This document shows, piece after piece, positions 1,474-25,991 of a stretch of 37,119 nucleotides of DNA; positions within the stretch are counted from its first letter, which is position 1, and every line of letters begins with the position of its first letter. Made by a program: the position numbers and the translations under genes. Source of the stretch: Bacteroidota bacterium (GTDB lineage Bacteria; Bacteroidota; Bacteroidia; Chitinophagales; Chitinophagaceae); NCBI GenBank assembly GCA_025352905.1, contig JANXRX010000028.1:1-37119 (forward strand), in the 5' to 3' direction. The notes below the pieces were generated by a model. The model was not told the origin of the DNA. It made no database searches and was given only the letters and a program-made list of their open reading frames with translations.

Positions 1474-2634
1474 CTTTCTTTTGGTTCCCGCATACAACTC
1501 ATATTCCAGCAGCCGGCAATCGATCGTTGCATTAAAAAATTCAATTCTCCGGGAAGGTTTTAATCGTATTTTTTTTGCAAGATCCAGGTTTCCTGTAAAA
1601 ATATACCCTGTATAACCCTTACAGCTATTCTTTAAAAAATCGCCGATCCTTGCATAGGTAACATTCAGTTCGATCTCATCCCCCAGCCTTTCCCCGTATT
1701 CAGGGTTGAACATAATGATACCGCCGGCTTCTTCAGGTACAGTTGTCTTTTCAAAATCGCCCGTCTCAAAACGGATCAGTTTGTCAACACCTGCGGCAGC
1801 AGCATTTATTTTAGCGATGTTGATAGCCTGTTCACTGATATCAGATGCAATGATCTGTATGCCCGCTACCTCCTGTACCTGCTCATCTATCCGTTGTTTT
1901 TCTGTTGTGTACATGGCTTCCGCATACCCTTTTATACTCATAAAAGCATAACGGGTACGTAACAGTCCCGGCACCCGGCGGGTAGCGATCAGTGCTGCTT
2001 CAATAGCAAGGGTACCCGAACCGCACATGGGGTTGATAAAAGGCGCTTGCCTGTTCCATTTAGTAGATAAAATAGTAGCGGCAGCAAGCGCTTCGAGCAT
2101 CGGCGCCTTTCCTGGCAGTTTGCGATAACCATGTTTGGCAAGCGTTTCGCCTGAAGTATCTATGAATATCTCGGCCTCTTCGTGTTTCCAGTACAGGTAG
2201 ATCACTGCGCCTGTTTGTTCAGAGCCGGTAGATGGACGCTTACCCGTTTCATTACGCATATGGTCAACGATCGCGTCTTTTACCCGCAGGTTGGCAAACA
2301 GGTTGGTTTGTATGGTTGGATGAAAAACATTACTGGTAACCGAAAAATAACCATCGGGTTCAATGATCGTTTCCCAGGGAAGTGTAACCAACTGTTGGTA
2401 CAATTCATCCGGGTGATCGCAGGCAAACGCTTTGAGTGAATACATGACCTGGCTGGCACACCGCAAATTAAGGTTCAGCCGTATGCAATCCGTAACCGTT
2501 CCATATAGCTCCACTCCTGTCTGAAAAGAACGCACGACTGTAAAACCCAGCTCCGTAACTTCTGATTGTAATGCGGGCGCCAGCCATTTATGACAGGTGA
2601 TGATGATCCGGCCGGGATTGGTGAAGACTTGCAT
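1471..2634 (-). CDS. THUMP-domain class I SAM-dependent RNA methyltransferase (RlmL/Trm14-like)
   Basis: NPMCGSGTLAIEAALIA SAM motif and FNPEYGERLG motif IV. The ORF opens at 2703 but upstream codons lie in a repeat tract; MQVFTNPG (2634) or MFAAMQVF (2646) is the likelier start. Confidence 0.88.
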   Translation of the reverse strand: MQVFTNPGRIIITCHKWLAPALQSEVTELGFTVVRSFQTGVELYGTVTDCIRLNLNLRCASQVMYSLKAFACDHPDELYQQLVTLPWETIIEPDGYFSVTSNVFHPTIQTNLFANLRVKDAIVDHMRNETGKRPSTGSEQTGAVIYLYWKHEEAEIFIDTSGETLAKHGYRKLPGKAPMLEALAAATILSTKWNRQAPFINPMCGSGTLAIEAALIATRRVPGLLRTRYAFMSIKGYAEAMYTTEKQRIDEQVQEVAGIQIIASDISEQAINIAKINAAAAGVDKLIRFETGDFEKTTVPEEAGGIIMFNPEYGERLGDEIELNVTYARIGDFLKNSCKGYTGYIFTGNLDLAKKIRLKPSRRIEFFNATIDCRLLEYELYAGTKRK

Positions 2635-2661
2635 AGCTGCAAACATAAGCAATAAGGGATC

Positions 2662-2730
2662 GTGAGGCGTCAGTCGTGAGGCGTGAGTATTTTTTAGCCT
2701 CACAACTCATGTCTCACACCTCACGGACTC
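2662..2730. repeat. Heptad-word tandem/inverted repeat, GTGAGNC family (element A)
   Basis: Left GTGAGGC|GTCAGTC|GTGAGGC|GTGAGTA (2662-2689), T-run, right GCCTCAC|AACTCAT|GTCTCAC|ACCTCAC (2697-2724); exact 7-nt register, inverted arms. Confidence 0.85.
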
Positions 2731-2787
2731 TATTATTCGTATTTTCAATTTTTATTCGCAAAACCCGATCTCTTTAATCGTATTAAT

Positions 2788-3228
2788 ATGGACAGTTACA
2801 GTAAACAAATGCAGATCCGATGGAGTGATATGGACCCGAATTTTCATTTACGGCATTCCGTATATTATGACCTCGGGGCCACACTGCGCACTTTTTTTCT
2901 TACAGAACATGGGATCACGCCTGCGGTGATGATGGAAAAACAGATTGGGCCGATATTGTTCAGGGAAGAATGTGTGTTTAAAAGAGAGATCCATTTCGGC
3001 GATCCGGTTGAGATCAATGTAAAACTGGTGAAATGTACAGAAGATATGGGTCGCTGGACGATGCGGCACGAGGTATGGAAAAACAGTGACACCCTCAGCG
3101 CTATTATCACCATTGATGGCGCATGGATGCATACGGGCCTGCGAAAACTGATTTTACCACCGCCGGAGTTCCACAAACTATTTGAAGAATTTCCGCGCGC
3201 AGATGATTTCGAATGGACCCGGCGTTAA
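2788..3228 (+). CDS. Acyl-CoA thioesterase, 4HBT hotdog-fold family
   Basis: 146 aa; IRWSDMDPNFHLRHSVYYD resembles the 4HBT 'D-x-N-x-H' region. Confidence 0.8.
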   Translation: MDSYSKQMQIRWSDMDPNFHLRHSVYYDLGATLRTFFLTEHGITPAVMMEKQIGPILFREECVFKREIHFGDPVEINVKLVKCTEDMGRWTMRHEVWKNSDTLSAIITIDGAWMHTGLRKLILPPPEFHKLFEEFPRADDFEWTRR

Positions 3229-3253
3229 GGAAACTACTTACAGCATAAAAAAA

Positions 3254-3276
3254 ATCCCCCGTGGATAACGGGGGAT
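3254..3276. terminator. Bidirectional intrinsic terminator
   Basis: ATCCCCCGT-GGATA-ACGGGGGAT perfect 9-bp stem, A-run upstream and T-run downstream, between convergent genes. Confidence 0.85.
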
Positions 3277-3303
3277 GGGTTTTTCATGGATAAATAAAAT
3301 AAG

Positions 3304-3513
3304 TTACAGTACACTCTGCCATCCCAGGTGGGCACTCTTGCTTTTCCGGTGGATGTTCCACAGATCTATTACACCAAAACTGGGTGCTTTTTTGCTTTTT
3401 GAGTTGTTTACTTTGATGACACCAGTTGCAACAGTTTCTTTTACTTCATTTACCAGTTGTTTCAGTTGATTCGCTTCTATTTGGACAATAGAAGGCATGA
3501 CATTACTTTTCAT
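3304..3513 (-). CDS. Small hypothetical protein (69 aa)
   Basis: Complete ORF between a consensus promoter and a terminator; C-terminal DLWNIHRKSKSA segment. Confidence 0.7.
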   Translation of the reverse strand: MKSNVMPSIVQIEANQLKQLVNEVKETVATGVIKVNNSKSKKAPSFGVIDLWNIHRKSKSAHLGWQSVL

Positions 3514-20177: not shown

Positions 20178-21023
20178 ATGAACCGTTTACTTCTCTTATC
20201 AGTACTGGCAACCGGTCTTTTATCTTCCTGTTCTACGGCCTTCAGATCGGGCCAGACACCGGACGATCTTTATTATTCGCCAGGCGGTGAACAGATCGCT
20301 GCCAAAGAAGAAGTAAAAAAACAAAAAGCCGATAAAGAGGACCAGGATAAGTATGACGAATATATCAGCAGCCAGGACGATCGTTACCTCCACATGAAAG
20401 TAGCTAACCGTGAACGCTGGAACACTTTGGATAATAATGATTACTGGTATGACAGCCGCTACGATTTTGCGGCTTACAACAGTTACAGTTATTCGGCTTA
20501 CTCGGGCTATTCAGGCTTCATGAATCCATACTATAATTATTACTCCGCCCTTAACCCGTATTATTTAGGGCCCGGATGGCAGTTTGGCCTTGGCTTGGGT
20601 TATACGAGCATGATCCCCGGATACTATGGTATGGGCGGTTATTACGGCGGCGGGCTTGGCTGGAGCAGCCCTTTATATACTGTTGTTGCTTACAGCACGC
20701 CAAAAGCGATCAGCGGTAGTGCTTCTACCAGTAATGTCAGCGCTTATTATAACAGAAGCTATAGTAATGCGAATGGCGCCTATACCCCCTACAAACCGGC
20801 CGGGTATGCAGGCCAGAACAGTTTTGGCGACTTGGTAAAAAGAGTGTTTAACGGGTCCTCATCCAACAATACTTCGTCCAGTTACGACAGGCCTGTGAGG
20901 TCATATTCTCCATCAAGCGGTTCCAACAGTTCCTCCACGCCCAGCAGTTCAGCGGGTGGAAGCAGCGGCGGTTTCAGAAGTACAGGTACTACCACCAGCA
21001 CCGGTCGTGGCGGTAAAAATTAA
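20178..21023 (+). CDS. Hypothetical lipoprotein, Tyr/Ser/Gly-rich
   Basis: MNRLLLLSVLATGLLSSCSTAF lipobox; Y/S/G-rich low-complexity body and tail. Confidence 0.75.
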   Translation: MNRLLLLSVLATGLLSSCSTAFRSGQTPDDLYYSPGGEQIAAKEEVKKQKADKEDQDKYDEYISSQDDRYLHMKVANRERWNTLDNNDYWYDSRYDFAAYNSYSYSAYSGYSGFMNPYYNYYSALNPYYLGPGWQFGLGLGYTSMIPGYYGMGGYYGGGLGWSSPLYTVVAYSTPKAISGSASTSNVSAYYNRSYSNANGAYTPYKPAGYAGQNSFGDLVKRVFNGSSSNNTSSSYDRPVRSYSPSSGSNSSSTPSSSAGGSSGGFRSTGTTTSTGRGGKN

Positions 21024-21109: not shown

Positions 21110-22642
21110 ATGAAATCATTCCTTCCCTATATTCTTATTTTCATTTCAGCATCCCTCGCTGCACAAAGTCCGGAAGATGCTTTGCGCACAGCCTGGTTTA
21201 CACAGAACGGTACAGCGCGGTTTATGGGAACCGGTGGTGTCATGGGTTCATTAGGCGGTGATATTACGGCTAACCATATCAACCCGGCCGGTATTGGTTT
21301 ATATAAGACCAATGAATTTGTACTTACGCCCGGATTTGGTTTTAACCATAACAAATTCAATTACCGGGGAACGGATACGCTCAGTAACAAAAGCAATTTC
21401 AATTACGGTACCACCGGTCTTATTATGGGTTCTGTAAACAAAGGCGGGAACCGGAACTGGAACAGCAGCGCATTTGCCATTTCGGTAAACCAGGTAGCTA
21501 ATTACAATAACCATATACAATTCAAAGGCTTTAATAACTTCAGTTCTTTTACAGAACAGTACCTGGAAGAATTGACCAAAGACAGGGCGGATACCAATGC
21601 AGCGCTGAGTAACTATATTTTTGGATCCTCGCTTGCCTTCAGAACTTTTTTGATAGATACCACCAGCGGCCCGGGAAATACAGTTACCGGTTACCAGAGC
21701 CTGGTACCCATATCAACCGGTGTTAACCAGTTATATGATGCCAATACACGCGGGGGGTTTCATGAGATAGCCATCGGGTTTGCCGGAAATATGGAAGACA
21801 GGTTATATCTCGGCGGCAGTCTTACCATTCCCATCATACACTATGAACGGGATCTTACCTATAGTGAAACCGATGCAACCGCCAGTACTACCAATCAATT
21901 CAAATCGTTTGAGTATAAAGAAAGCTTTACTTCCAATGCAGTGGGTGTAGGACTTAAATTAGGCATGATCTTTAAACCGGTGGGGTCTTTGCGACTGGGC
22001 CTGGCTATCCATACACCGCAATGGCTCAGTTACACAGACCGTATCAGTTCATCGCTTACTGCAAACACCGAAACCTATGCAGGTATTAAGAATGCCAGCA
22101 GCAATGCCCTCAATGGCGGAAGTGCAGGCGAGCGGAAATATGGGATGATCACTCCCTGGAAAGCGATCGCCAGCGCCAGTTATGTGCTCAGGGAAGTAAA
22201 TGATATACGCCAGCAAAAAGGCTTTATCAGCGCCGATCTTGAATTCGTAGATTATCGCGGTGCCAGGTATTTTGCATCCGACAACAGCACCCAGGCTTTG
22301 CAGGATTACTATAGCGTGCTTAACACAACTATAAAGAATACGTATAAAGGCAATATCAACCTGCGGGTAGGTGGTGAACTGAAATTCCATACGTTCATGT
22401 TCCGTTTGGGCGGCGCCTTTTATGGAAGCCCTTATGAAGACGATGCGCTCAAAGCCAGCCGGGTACTCGCAACAGGCGGCATCGGCTACCGCGATCATGG
22501 TATGTTCATCGACCTGGCTTACGTACACGCATTCAATAAAGATGTACAGTTCGCCTACCGCCTCAATGATAAACCCAACACCTTTGCCGAACAAAGCGGC
22601 AACCGGGGGAACCTGGTGTTGAGTGTGGGTTTTAAATTCTGA
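21110..22642 (+). CDS. Outer membrane protein, OmpP1/FadL/TodX-like
   Basis: Signal peptide; GTARFMGTGGVMGSLGGDITANHINPAGIGLYKTNEFVLTPGFGF; C-terminal NRGNLVLSVGFKF. Confidence 0.85.
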   Translation: MKSFLPYILIFISASLAAQSPEDALRTAWFTQNGTARFMGTGGVMGSLGGDITANHINPAGIGLYKTNEFVLTPGFGFNHNKFNYRGTDTLSNKSNFNYGTTGLIMGSVNKGGNRNWNSSAFAISVNQVANYNNHIQFKGFNNFSSFTEQYLEELTKDRADTNAALSNYIFGSSLAFRTFLIDTTSGPGNTVTGYQSLVPISTGVNQLYDANTRGGFHEIAIGFAGNMEDRLYLGGSLTIPIIHYERDLTYSETDATASTTNQFKSFEYKESFTSNAVGVGLKLGMIFKPVGSLRLGLAIHTPQWLSYTDRISSSLTANTETYAGIKNASSNALNGGSAGERKYGMITPWKAIASASYVLREVNDIRQQKGFISADLEFVDYRGARYFASDNSTQALQDYYSVLNTTIKNTYKGNINLRVGGELKFHTFMFRLGGAFYGSPYEDDALKASRVLATGGIGYRDHGMFIDLAYVHAFNKDVQFAYRLNDKPNTFAEQSGNRGNLVLSVGFKF

Positions 22643-22678: not shown

Positions 22679-24583
22679 ATGTACAAAAATAATCTCCCCG
22701 CAGGCATTCTTATGCTACTGCTGCTTGGCACGACAAGCGTTTACGCCCAAATCACTAACCCGTTACGGGGAAGGATCGAAGATTTTATACGCTCGAAAAA
22801 TGCAACGATCGGTGTGGCTATCGGCGGCCCGGATGACCGGGATACACTTACGGTGAACGGAGCCGGCCACTATCCTATGCATAGCGTTTATAAGTTTCAC
22901 CTGGCAGTAGCCATACTTGACCAGGTGGATAAAGGCAAATTCAAGCTGGATCAGAAAATACTGGTCAAAAAAACAGACCTGCTACCCGGTAACTGGAGCC
23001 CCTTAAGAGATGCTTACCCTGAAGCTGAGATAACAATGACGATAAAGGACCTCTTAAGCTATGCTGTTTCGCAAAGTGATAACAATGCCTGTGATATACT
23101 GTTCAGGCTGATAGGCGGGCCCAAAGAAGTAAATAAATATATTCATTCAATAGCTGTCAGGGACGTGAACATAGTAGCTACAGAAGAGGAAACGGCCAAA
23201 AGCTGGGATGTTCAGTATACCGACTGGAGCACACCTTTTGCAGCCGTGCTGTTGCTCAAAAAATTTAATGAAAAAGGAATACTCTCCCCAAAAAACCATG
23301 ATCTGTTGTGGGATCTGATGGTGAATTCTCTTAACAACAACCGCATCAAAGGATCATTACCTGCAGGTACTATCGTTGCGCACAAGACCGGCACATCCGG
23401 AACAAATGCACAAAACATAATGGCCGCCACCAATGACATTGGTATTGTGAATCTGCCGGATGGCAAACATTTTTCCATCGCGGTATTTGTTTCCGATTCA
23501 AAAGATAATGACAGCCTGAATTCAAGAACGATCGCGGGCATTACCCAACTGGCCTGGGAATATTATGCCGAAAAATCGCTGGCTTTAGCGAGACAAAAAT
23601 TTGATGTATCTGCCGGCGTTGACTCGCTCATAAATGCGGGTATCAAAGCAAAAAAACCGTTTAACGGAACCATTCTTATCTCGCAAAATGGCAAAAAGAT
23701 ATATTCAAAGGTGTTCGGGTTCTCGGATATTGATAAAAAAATTGCTTTATTACCCAATGATCAATATGTGATCGGTTCGATCAGCAAGCAGGTAACGGCG
23801 GTGCTGGTGCTGCAGGAAGTTGAAAAGGGACATATCGTACTTCAATTGCCGATACACACTTACCTGCCCGATTTGCCCGCTAAATGGGCCGATACGGTAA
23901 CGGTGCACCAGTTGCTCACGCATACACATGGCATAACTGCACTTGACCAACCGCTTGCTTTCAGACCGGGAATGGATTTTCAATATTCACAGATAGGATA
24001 CGACCTGTTAGCGAAAATCGTTGAAAAGACAAGCAAGAAAAGCTTTGCCGCTCTTTCTGCCGAACTGTTTGAGAAATGCAATATGCGGAGTACGTTCCAT
24101 CCCGACCTGCACAAAAGCAAGGGATTGGTAAAGGGATATACAGAACAACCTGATGGCAAACCCGAACTGGCCACAGGAAGCGGCGTGAATTATGTTGCTG
24201 CGGGCGGTTTTATTTCAACACCTAACGACCTGCTTACCTGGAACACCTGCCTGCACGGCGGAAAATTTTTTGCAGACAGTAACAACTATAAACTGATGAC
24301 CACCGGTTATGCCACAAGCAACCATCCTGTTTTTGGGCCGGTAGACTATGGCTATGGCATCACTACTTCGAACCAGGATAATATTCTTCAATTGGGACAG
24401 AGCGGTTATACACCAGGCTATGTTTCGCTTGATTTTTATTTTCCCGCTTCCAAAACAAGTGTGATCATCCTGTCGAACCTTGCGCGTGAACCCGACAATC
24501 TAACCAATACGTTTTTAACGGAGACACAGATACTAGCTATGATCAAACAACAAAGCAACCTTATCACAAAGACCTACAAATAA
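22679..24583 (+). CDS. Fusion: N-terminal class A (subclass A2, PER/CfxA-like) beta-lactamase + C-terminal class C-like serine hydrolase
   Basis: Class [10 protein letters not shown] (SxxK), [19 protein letters not shown] (SDN), [25 protein letters not shown] (KTG). Class C-like: [11 protein letters not shown] (SxxK), YSQIGYDLL (YxN-like), GQSGYTPGY. One uninterrupted 634-aa ORF with signal peptide. Confidence 0.9.
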
Positions 24584-24594
24584 TATCTATGCTA

Positions 24595-25170
24595 ATGAAT
24601 GATATCAATATCCTGGAAACAAAGATCCTATCCGATAACTGGTACATACTGAAAAAGGTAACCTACGAATATGTAAAGAATAATGGTGTTCGTGAAACAC
24701 AGACCAGGGAAGCCTATGACCGCGGAAACGGTGCAACCATCCTGCTGTATAATAAAGCACAGCGAACCGTTATCCTTACCAAACAGTTTCGGCTGCCCAC
24801 CTATATCAATGGCAATACTTCCGGTATGCTGATAGAGGCATGCGCCGGTTTGCTCGATAAAGACAATCCCGAGGATTGTATCCGCCGGGAAACAGAAGAA
24901 GAAACGGGTTACCAGGTAAAAGATGTGCGCAAGATATTTGAAGCGTATATGTCGCCCGGCTCTGTAACAGAGATCCTGTATTTTTTCGTTGCTGAGTATT
25001 CAAAAGAAATGAAAGTTAACGCCGGTGGCGGGCTGGAAGACGAAGAAGAAAATATAGAAGTGCTGGAACCCGGTTTTGACAAAGCCATTGAGATGATGCA
25101 TAACGGAGAGATCAAAGATGCCAAAACCATTATGCTGTTGCAGTATGCGATGATCCATCAGCTATTATGA
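24595..25170 (+). CDS. nudK: NUDIX hydrolase, GDP-mannose pyrophosphatase NudK-like
   Basis: Nudix box [42 protein letters not shown]. Start at 24589 or 24595. Confidence 0.85.
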
Positions 25171-25991
25171 TACCCGTAACCCATCTTTTTGCCATTCTTG
25201 ACCAAAAACTGGTAGAACTGCTTCGTTCTTTAGAGCCGGATGACTGGAACAAACGGACACTGGCCAAACAATGGAGCGTGAAGGATGTGGCTGCTCATTT
25301 ACTGGATGGAAATTTACGTGCCCTGTCCTTTTCGAGAGATCAGCATACCATGCCACCAGTCGGTGGTGATATCCATTCGTATGATAGCCTGGTAGGCTTC
25401 CTCAACCGCTTAAATGCAGAATGGGTACTGGCTGCCAAAAGACTTAGCCCGCAGGTACTCACAGACTTGTTGGAAACCAGCGGTAAAGAATATACGTCCC
25501 ATATGCAAACGCAGGATCTTACTGCACAGGCTGTATTCGCAGTTGGCTGGGCCGGTGAAACCGTTTCTCAAAACTGGTTTCATATAGCGCGTGAATACAC
25601 GGAAAAATGGCACCACCAGCAACAGATAAGGGAAGCGGTTGATAAACCAGGTATTATTACCAAAGAATTGTTCTACCCTGTTATGGATACTTTTATGTGC
25701 GGCCTGCCGCATACTTACCGGAACACGCTTGCAGAAGATGGGACCGTGTTGCAGATCACTATAGATACAGAGAATGGCGGCAACTGGTATTTGGTTCGTA
25801 AGCAAACTGCCTGGCAATTATCCAAACAACCGGAAGCCGGTATCCACGCTTCGCTGCTGATGCAACCAGGTACCGCATGGAAATTATTTACCAAGGGTAT
25901 TTCTCCCGCAGAAGCGCGTAAAGAGGTTGTTATCCATGGAGATGAATCCTTAGCAAGTGTGGCGCTTTCACTGGTTGCGGTGATGGCGTGA
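25167..25991 (+). CDS. Maleylpyruvate isomerase N-terminal / DinB-like domain protein
   Basis: [42 protein letters not shown] metal-binding-type pattern; ATGA overlap with nudK. Confidence 0.8.

Follow-up and report, generated by a model that had tools for sequence, protein, structure and literature searches.

Positions 22679-24583 on the forward strand of the window (the whole 37,119-nt stretch of DNA that was analyzed) form one uninterrupted open reading frame of 634 aa, running from ATG to TAA, in which a class A beta-lactamase domain is followed by a serine-hydrolase domain of the S12 (PF00144) type. The features of the gene, together with the upstream gene that marks its slot, are listed below.

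21110..22642, +, OmpP1-like gene upstream of and outside the fusion, conserved marker of the slot (synteny)
22679..24583, +, fused gene, 634 aa (ORF; orthologues in other genomes)
22679..22747, +, predicted Sec/SPI signal peptide, residues 1-23, predicted cleavage VYA|Q24 (sequence; Gln after the predicted site)
22763..23569, +, class A (subclass A2) beta-lactamase domain, residues 29-297 (PF13354; NF012099)
22883..22894, +, SVYK, residues 69-72, with S69/K72 (Ambler S70/K73; motif alignment)
23075..23083, +, SDN, residues 133-135 (Ambler 130-132; motif alignment)
23183..23185, +, E169, by inference the equivalent of Ambler E166 (motif alignment)
23384..23392, +, KTG, residues 236-238 (Ambler 234-236; motif alignment)
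23570..23659, +, interdomain linker, residues 298-327 (no indel across the five fused proteins)
23660..24532, +, S12/PF00144 serine-hydrolase domain, residues about 328-618 (PF00144 match; comparison with solved sequences)
23777..23788, +, SISK, residues 367-370, with S367/K370 (A367/T370 in G782 and G783, Q/D in G766 and G709; alignment)
23984..23992, +, YSQ, residues 436-438, at the position of the class C YxN (alignment)
24398..24406, +, QSG, residues 574-576, at the position of the class C KTG and aligned with HSG of Pab87, 2qmi (alignment)

One frame joins two domains at a housekeeping locus

Pfam matched Beta-lactamase2 at residues 51-271 (136 bits; cut-off, 22) and PF00144 at residues 331-606 (190.7 bits; cut-off, 27). 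The initial annotation had described a single polypeptide with two fused domains and proposed a search for these two families; both were found far above their cut-offs in an unbroken frame, and all of the motifs that it had named were present (SVYK, SDN, and KTG in the N-terminal half; SISK, YSQ, and QSG in the C-terminal half). Its division of the protein into two halves held for the domains themselves, but the signal peptide and the linker belong to neither. A misassembly or frameshift joining two genes was ruled out by full-length orthologues in other MAGs, and we conclude that the 634-aa ORF is genuine and results from the fusion of two genes.

The gene is chromosomal and lies among housekeeping genes (ProS, TruB, NudK, and M16 peptidases), with no resistance cassette in the window neighborhood and no mobile-element context among the genes read. 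None of the plasmid records, among at least 5000 listed, matched the fused protein over at least 80% of its length. Given this setting and the lack of such a plasmid match, the present resistance concern is low.

All five fused proteins that we found begin with a hydrophobic N-terminus that ends in a small residue and is followed by Gln, in keeping with the rule that Bacteroidetes substrates of signal peptidase I carry Gln after the cleavage site (PMC5837995). No lipobox cysteine was seen in these N-termini. We infer a periplasmic or outer destination for the fused protein.

The N-terminal half is a subclass A2 beta-lactamase domain

The N-terminal half scored 360.2 bits against NF012099, the NCBIfam equivalog model for subclass A2 class A beta-lactamases (cut-off, 320), and the models ranking after it were those for TLA, CGA/CIA, PER, and VEB. 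Its best match among solved sequences was 6pq8, a 299-residue beta-lactamase (E = 5e-91). Every element of the class A motif set (SxxK, SDN, Glu166, and K[TS]G) was present, as SVYK, SDN, E169, and KTG. The earlier assignment to the PER-type A2 enzymes therefore stands, and these scores and motifs mark the half as a genuine class A domain of subclass A2. We also considered an M169/H170-type substitution as a mark of a dead A domain; it was not decisive, as the relatives L028 and L034 likewise have Ala at the second of these positions. The same genome encodes two more Beta-lactamase2-family proteins (L001 and L002, on contigs C150 and C59 of G000), which share 19-23% identity with the fused A domain.

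The C-terminal half is an S12 hydrolase domain distinct from class C

The C-terminal half belongs to the PF00144/S12-type fold by its Pfam gathering score. It reached only 54.2 bits against the class C beta-lactamase model NF033085 (cut-off, 415), and of the class C motif set of SxSK, YxN, and KTG (PMC11112869) it has SISK, with YSQ and QSG in place of the other two. The description of this half as class C-like thus holds for the fold, but its identity as a class C beta-lactamase was rejected on both score and motifs. The nearest solved sequences were Pab87 (2qmi), LACTB, alkaline D-peptidase, and the R61 carboxypeptidase, with AmpC ranking behind them. An AlphaFold2 prediction made from three sequences only had a pLDDT of 35.

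Free-standing relatives in the Bacteroidota (L038, L041, L098, and L100) are about 340-360 aa long, have their own signal peptide, and carry SxSK and YSQ with QTG or HTG. The set of SISK, YSQ, and Q/HTG recurs in S12 relatives fused to other domains (L099). Because free-standing and otherwise-fused relatives share the motif set, YSQ and QSG are a trait of the S12 family rather than damage to the window copy, and the suggestion that this half is degenerate was rejected for that copy (compare L038, L098, L099, and L100).

In three other genomes (L010, 910-2523; L050, 904-2475; L099, 820-2493), the same S12 family is found C-terminal to an alpha/beta-hydrolase-like domain (GxSKGG) that is exported, so the family has become linked to other exported domains on more than one occasion. 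In L010, SISE replaces SISK, so that the SxxK lysine is lost.

The fusion occupies a fixed slot in five genomes of one genus

The host genus is a group of freshwater Bacteroidota, and five of its 147 genomes carry the fusion: that of the window species (G000) and four others of the genus (G782, G783, G766, and G709). Since so few genomes have the gene, its role is dispensable. Full-length orthologues of 630 aa with 68-70% identity to the window protein are present in two lake MAGs of an uncultured Bacteroidetes bacterium (L006 and L007); the G782 and G783 loci (70% and 69% identity) match these and were treated as the same two MAGs. The G766 orthologue is full length and 38% identical over residues 10-604, and the G709 copy, its close kin, is split over two contig ends.

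In all five carriers, the same OmpP1-like gene stands immediately upstream of the fusion. The upstream block of ProS, a small exported protein, and OmpP1 is also kept in fusion-free genomes, where the slot after OmpP1 is filled by MiaA, an M16 peptidase, a conserved 436-aa gene, or another gene. The exported protein at window positions 20178-21023 is Tyr/Ser/Gly-rich, has no Pfam match, and is conserved at 37-50% identity upstream of the OmpP1-like gene across the whole genus sample. On the far side, an MDMPI_N/DinB-type gene (25167-25991) follows NudK in the window; L006 and L007 have a different protein there, possibly DinB-like by eye.

No other class A plus S12 fusion was seen in partly overlapping samples of about 400 genomes at each of the family, order, class, and phylum levels; these searches scored only the top candidates in each genome, so that a fusion that had diverged strongly or was cut by a contig end would have escaped them. 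Nor did the fetched loci contain an unfused A2-then-S12 gene pair that might serve as a precursor. The only tandem, L036, has the reverse order, with a free-standing S12 gene (1441-2490) followed after 5 bases by an A2-like gene (2496-3389) in which RSG replaces KTG; this arrangement suggests that the A2 and S12 families work together.

In the domain trees, support for the group of five fused A domains was 100/100, and that for the group of five fused C domains was 87/82; this grouping of both halves is consistent with a single fusion event. The two trees disagree inside the fused group as to whether G766/G709 or the window copy is nearer kin of G782/G783, and a long branch leads to G766/G709. 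In the OmpP1 tree, the carriers fell into two well-supported host groups with no clear branching order between them, which would fit either an ancestral fusion followed by losses or a single transfer into that slot.

Active sites are lost while purifying selection persists

G782 and G783 retain an intact A domain, but SISK of their C domain has become AIST, so that both nucleophile and lysine are gone. Losses in G766 and G709 extend to both domains: the A domain has SALP, TGD, and no KTG, and the C domain has QLSD, with Q and D at the Ser and Lys positions, and has lost YSQ. The G766 copy (L057, 1432-3279) also lacks about 10 residues in the LPDGRT region that G709 (L052/L054) retains. Among the 34 A2 relatives that lie outside the fused group, departures from the class A motifs are limited to single letters (SVYQ in L088, RSG in L036, and KSG in L089), which makes the wholesale loss specific to G766/G709.

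We compared Nei-Gojobori estimates of dN/dS for the two close genome pairs. Between G782 and G783, the value was 0.046 for the A domain and 0.066 (0.040-0.100) for the dead C domain, which is somewhat faster than the neighboring OmpP1 (0.031) and NudK (0.028) genes. Between G766 and G709, the dead A domain gave 0.132 (0.078-0.210) and the dead C domain 0.111 (0.060-0.191), against 0.123 for the MiaA control in the same pair. Over both pairs, the values of 0.05-0.13 are close to those of neighboring genes, with upper bounds of at most 0.21. Such low ratios in the dead domains indicate that these domains are probably functional as proteins.

The initial annotation had proposed a dual-activity resistance enzyme. 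As a conserved function, this is not supported: the C-domain Ser and Lys are lost in G782/G783 and the motifs of both domains in G766/G709 while purifying selection stays in force, and the neighborhood is one of housekeeping genes. Judged by these substitutions and ratios, catalysis is not what the lineage conserves.

Interpretation

On balance, we favor the view that this is an exported two-domain SxxK protein, born of an A2 and S12 gene fusion in one Bacteroidota genus, whose lineage-wide role needs no catalysis. A single ORF with one N-terminal signal peptide encodes two complete domains and a linker of fixed length, and the product would be exported by the Sec/SPI route to the periplasm or beyond. 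With its complete A2 motifs, the window N-terminal half would hydrolyze beta-lactams by acylation of Ser69 and Glu169-assisted deacylation. The C-terminal half could be acylated through Ser367, Lys370, and Tyr436, and its substrates would more likely be D-peptides or esters than beta-lactams. Because orthologues missing one or both active sites remain under purifying selection, selection appears to maintain a non-catalytic role in them, and presumably in the window copy as well; this role could be to bind cell-wall peptides or a partner protein.

Its sequence makes it most likely that the window copy works as an exported A2 beta-lactamase; the S12 domain tethered to it may remain open to acylation but is unlikely to be a beta-lactamase itself. 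The fused protein probably also serves a purpose other than breaking down drugs, and the lineage would retain a binding or scaffold role, with cell-wall peptides or a partner as the ligand, that outlives catalysis. More tentatively, and with slightly less confidence than doubt, we propose that an active beta-lactamase fusion has passed within one genus to a double pseudoenzyme still under selection, with the window copy, G782/G783, and G766/G709 as successive stages.

Alternatively, the window species may use both an A2 beta-lactamase and an active S12 peptidase or esterase acting on cell-wall D-peptides or esters, the losses in its relatives being lineage-specific decay. The window C domain does keep SISK and Tyr within the motif set of its free-standing relatives, and the S12 family is widespread as single exported enzymes, but orthologues without these residues are strongly constrained, so that catalysis cannot be the sole selected trait; we regard this account as rather unlikely. 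A bifunctional beta-lactamase like LRA-13, in which both halves hydrolyze beta-lactams with complementary spectra, has a natural precedent (PMC5967600) and would fit the complete SxxK in each window half. It is improbable given the low class C score, the absence of YxN and KTG, a closer likeness to Pab87, LACTB, D-peptidase, and R61 than to AmpC, and the loss of the C-domain nucleophile in the nearest orthologues. That the fusion is a decaying relic, drifting and being lost across the genus, is highly improbable despite its patchy presence, its motif losses, and the long branch to G766/G709, as frames of 615-634 aa are open in all four copies without a contig break and the dN/dS values are low.

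If the non-catalytic role and the staged series that we favor are correct, beta-lactamase folds would have a non-catalytic periplasmic function. The occurrence of intact/intact, intact/dead, and dead/dead forms in one genus offers a natural test of whether such folds can be kept for binding alone. Domain-based annotation of these proteins as bifunctional resistance enzymes would mislead for most members.

Comparison with known systems

To our knowledge, all of the named A2 enzymes (PER, VEB, TLA, CGA/CIA, CfxA, and CepA) are single-domain proteins. The fused N-terminal half resembles them in passing the A2 model and keeping the catalytic motifs, and it is 45-55% identical to chromosomal A2 members of the Bacteroidota; it differs in having T172/A173 where A2 relatives mostly carry M and H/Q/S/A. 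The C-terminal half shares its fold by sequence, the SxxK, and the Tyr with S12/PF00144 hydrolases (Pab87, LACTB, D-Ala-D-Ala carboxypeptidase R61, FmtA, and EstB), but has YSQ for YxN and QSG for HxG or KTG, and bears a class A domain at its N-terminus. The alpha/beta-hydrolase-like fusions (L010, L050, and L099) have the same C-terminal S12 family behind another exported domain, one that is unrelated to class A and gives weak Pfam matches only.

In the literature searched, we found no class A/class C or A2 plus S12 tandem protein and no passage of such a fusion to a constrained double pseudoenzyme. The precedent cited in the initial annotation is borne out: LRA-13 is a natural bifunctional serine beta-lactamase of class C plus class D (PMC5967600), and further class C/D fusions have been described (PMC9045261). 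LRA-13 and its homologues likewise place two serine beta-lactamase-fold domains on one polypeptide in environmental bacteria. Their type is defined by class C and class D domains with active-site patterns in both, whereas the window pairing joins an A2 domain to a non-class-C S12 domain, occurs in Bacteroidota rather than Oxalobacteraceae, has no BlaR/MecR-type neighbor, and belongs to a group of orthologues among which the active sites are not conserved.
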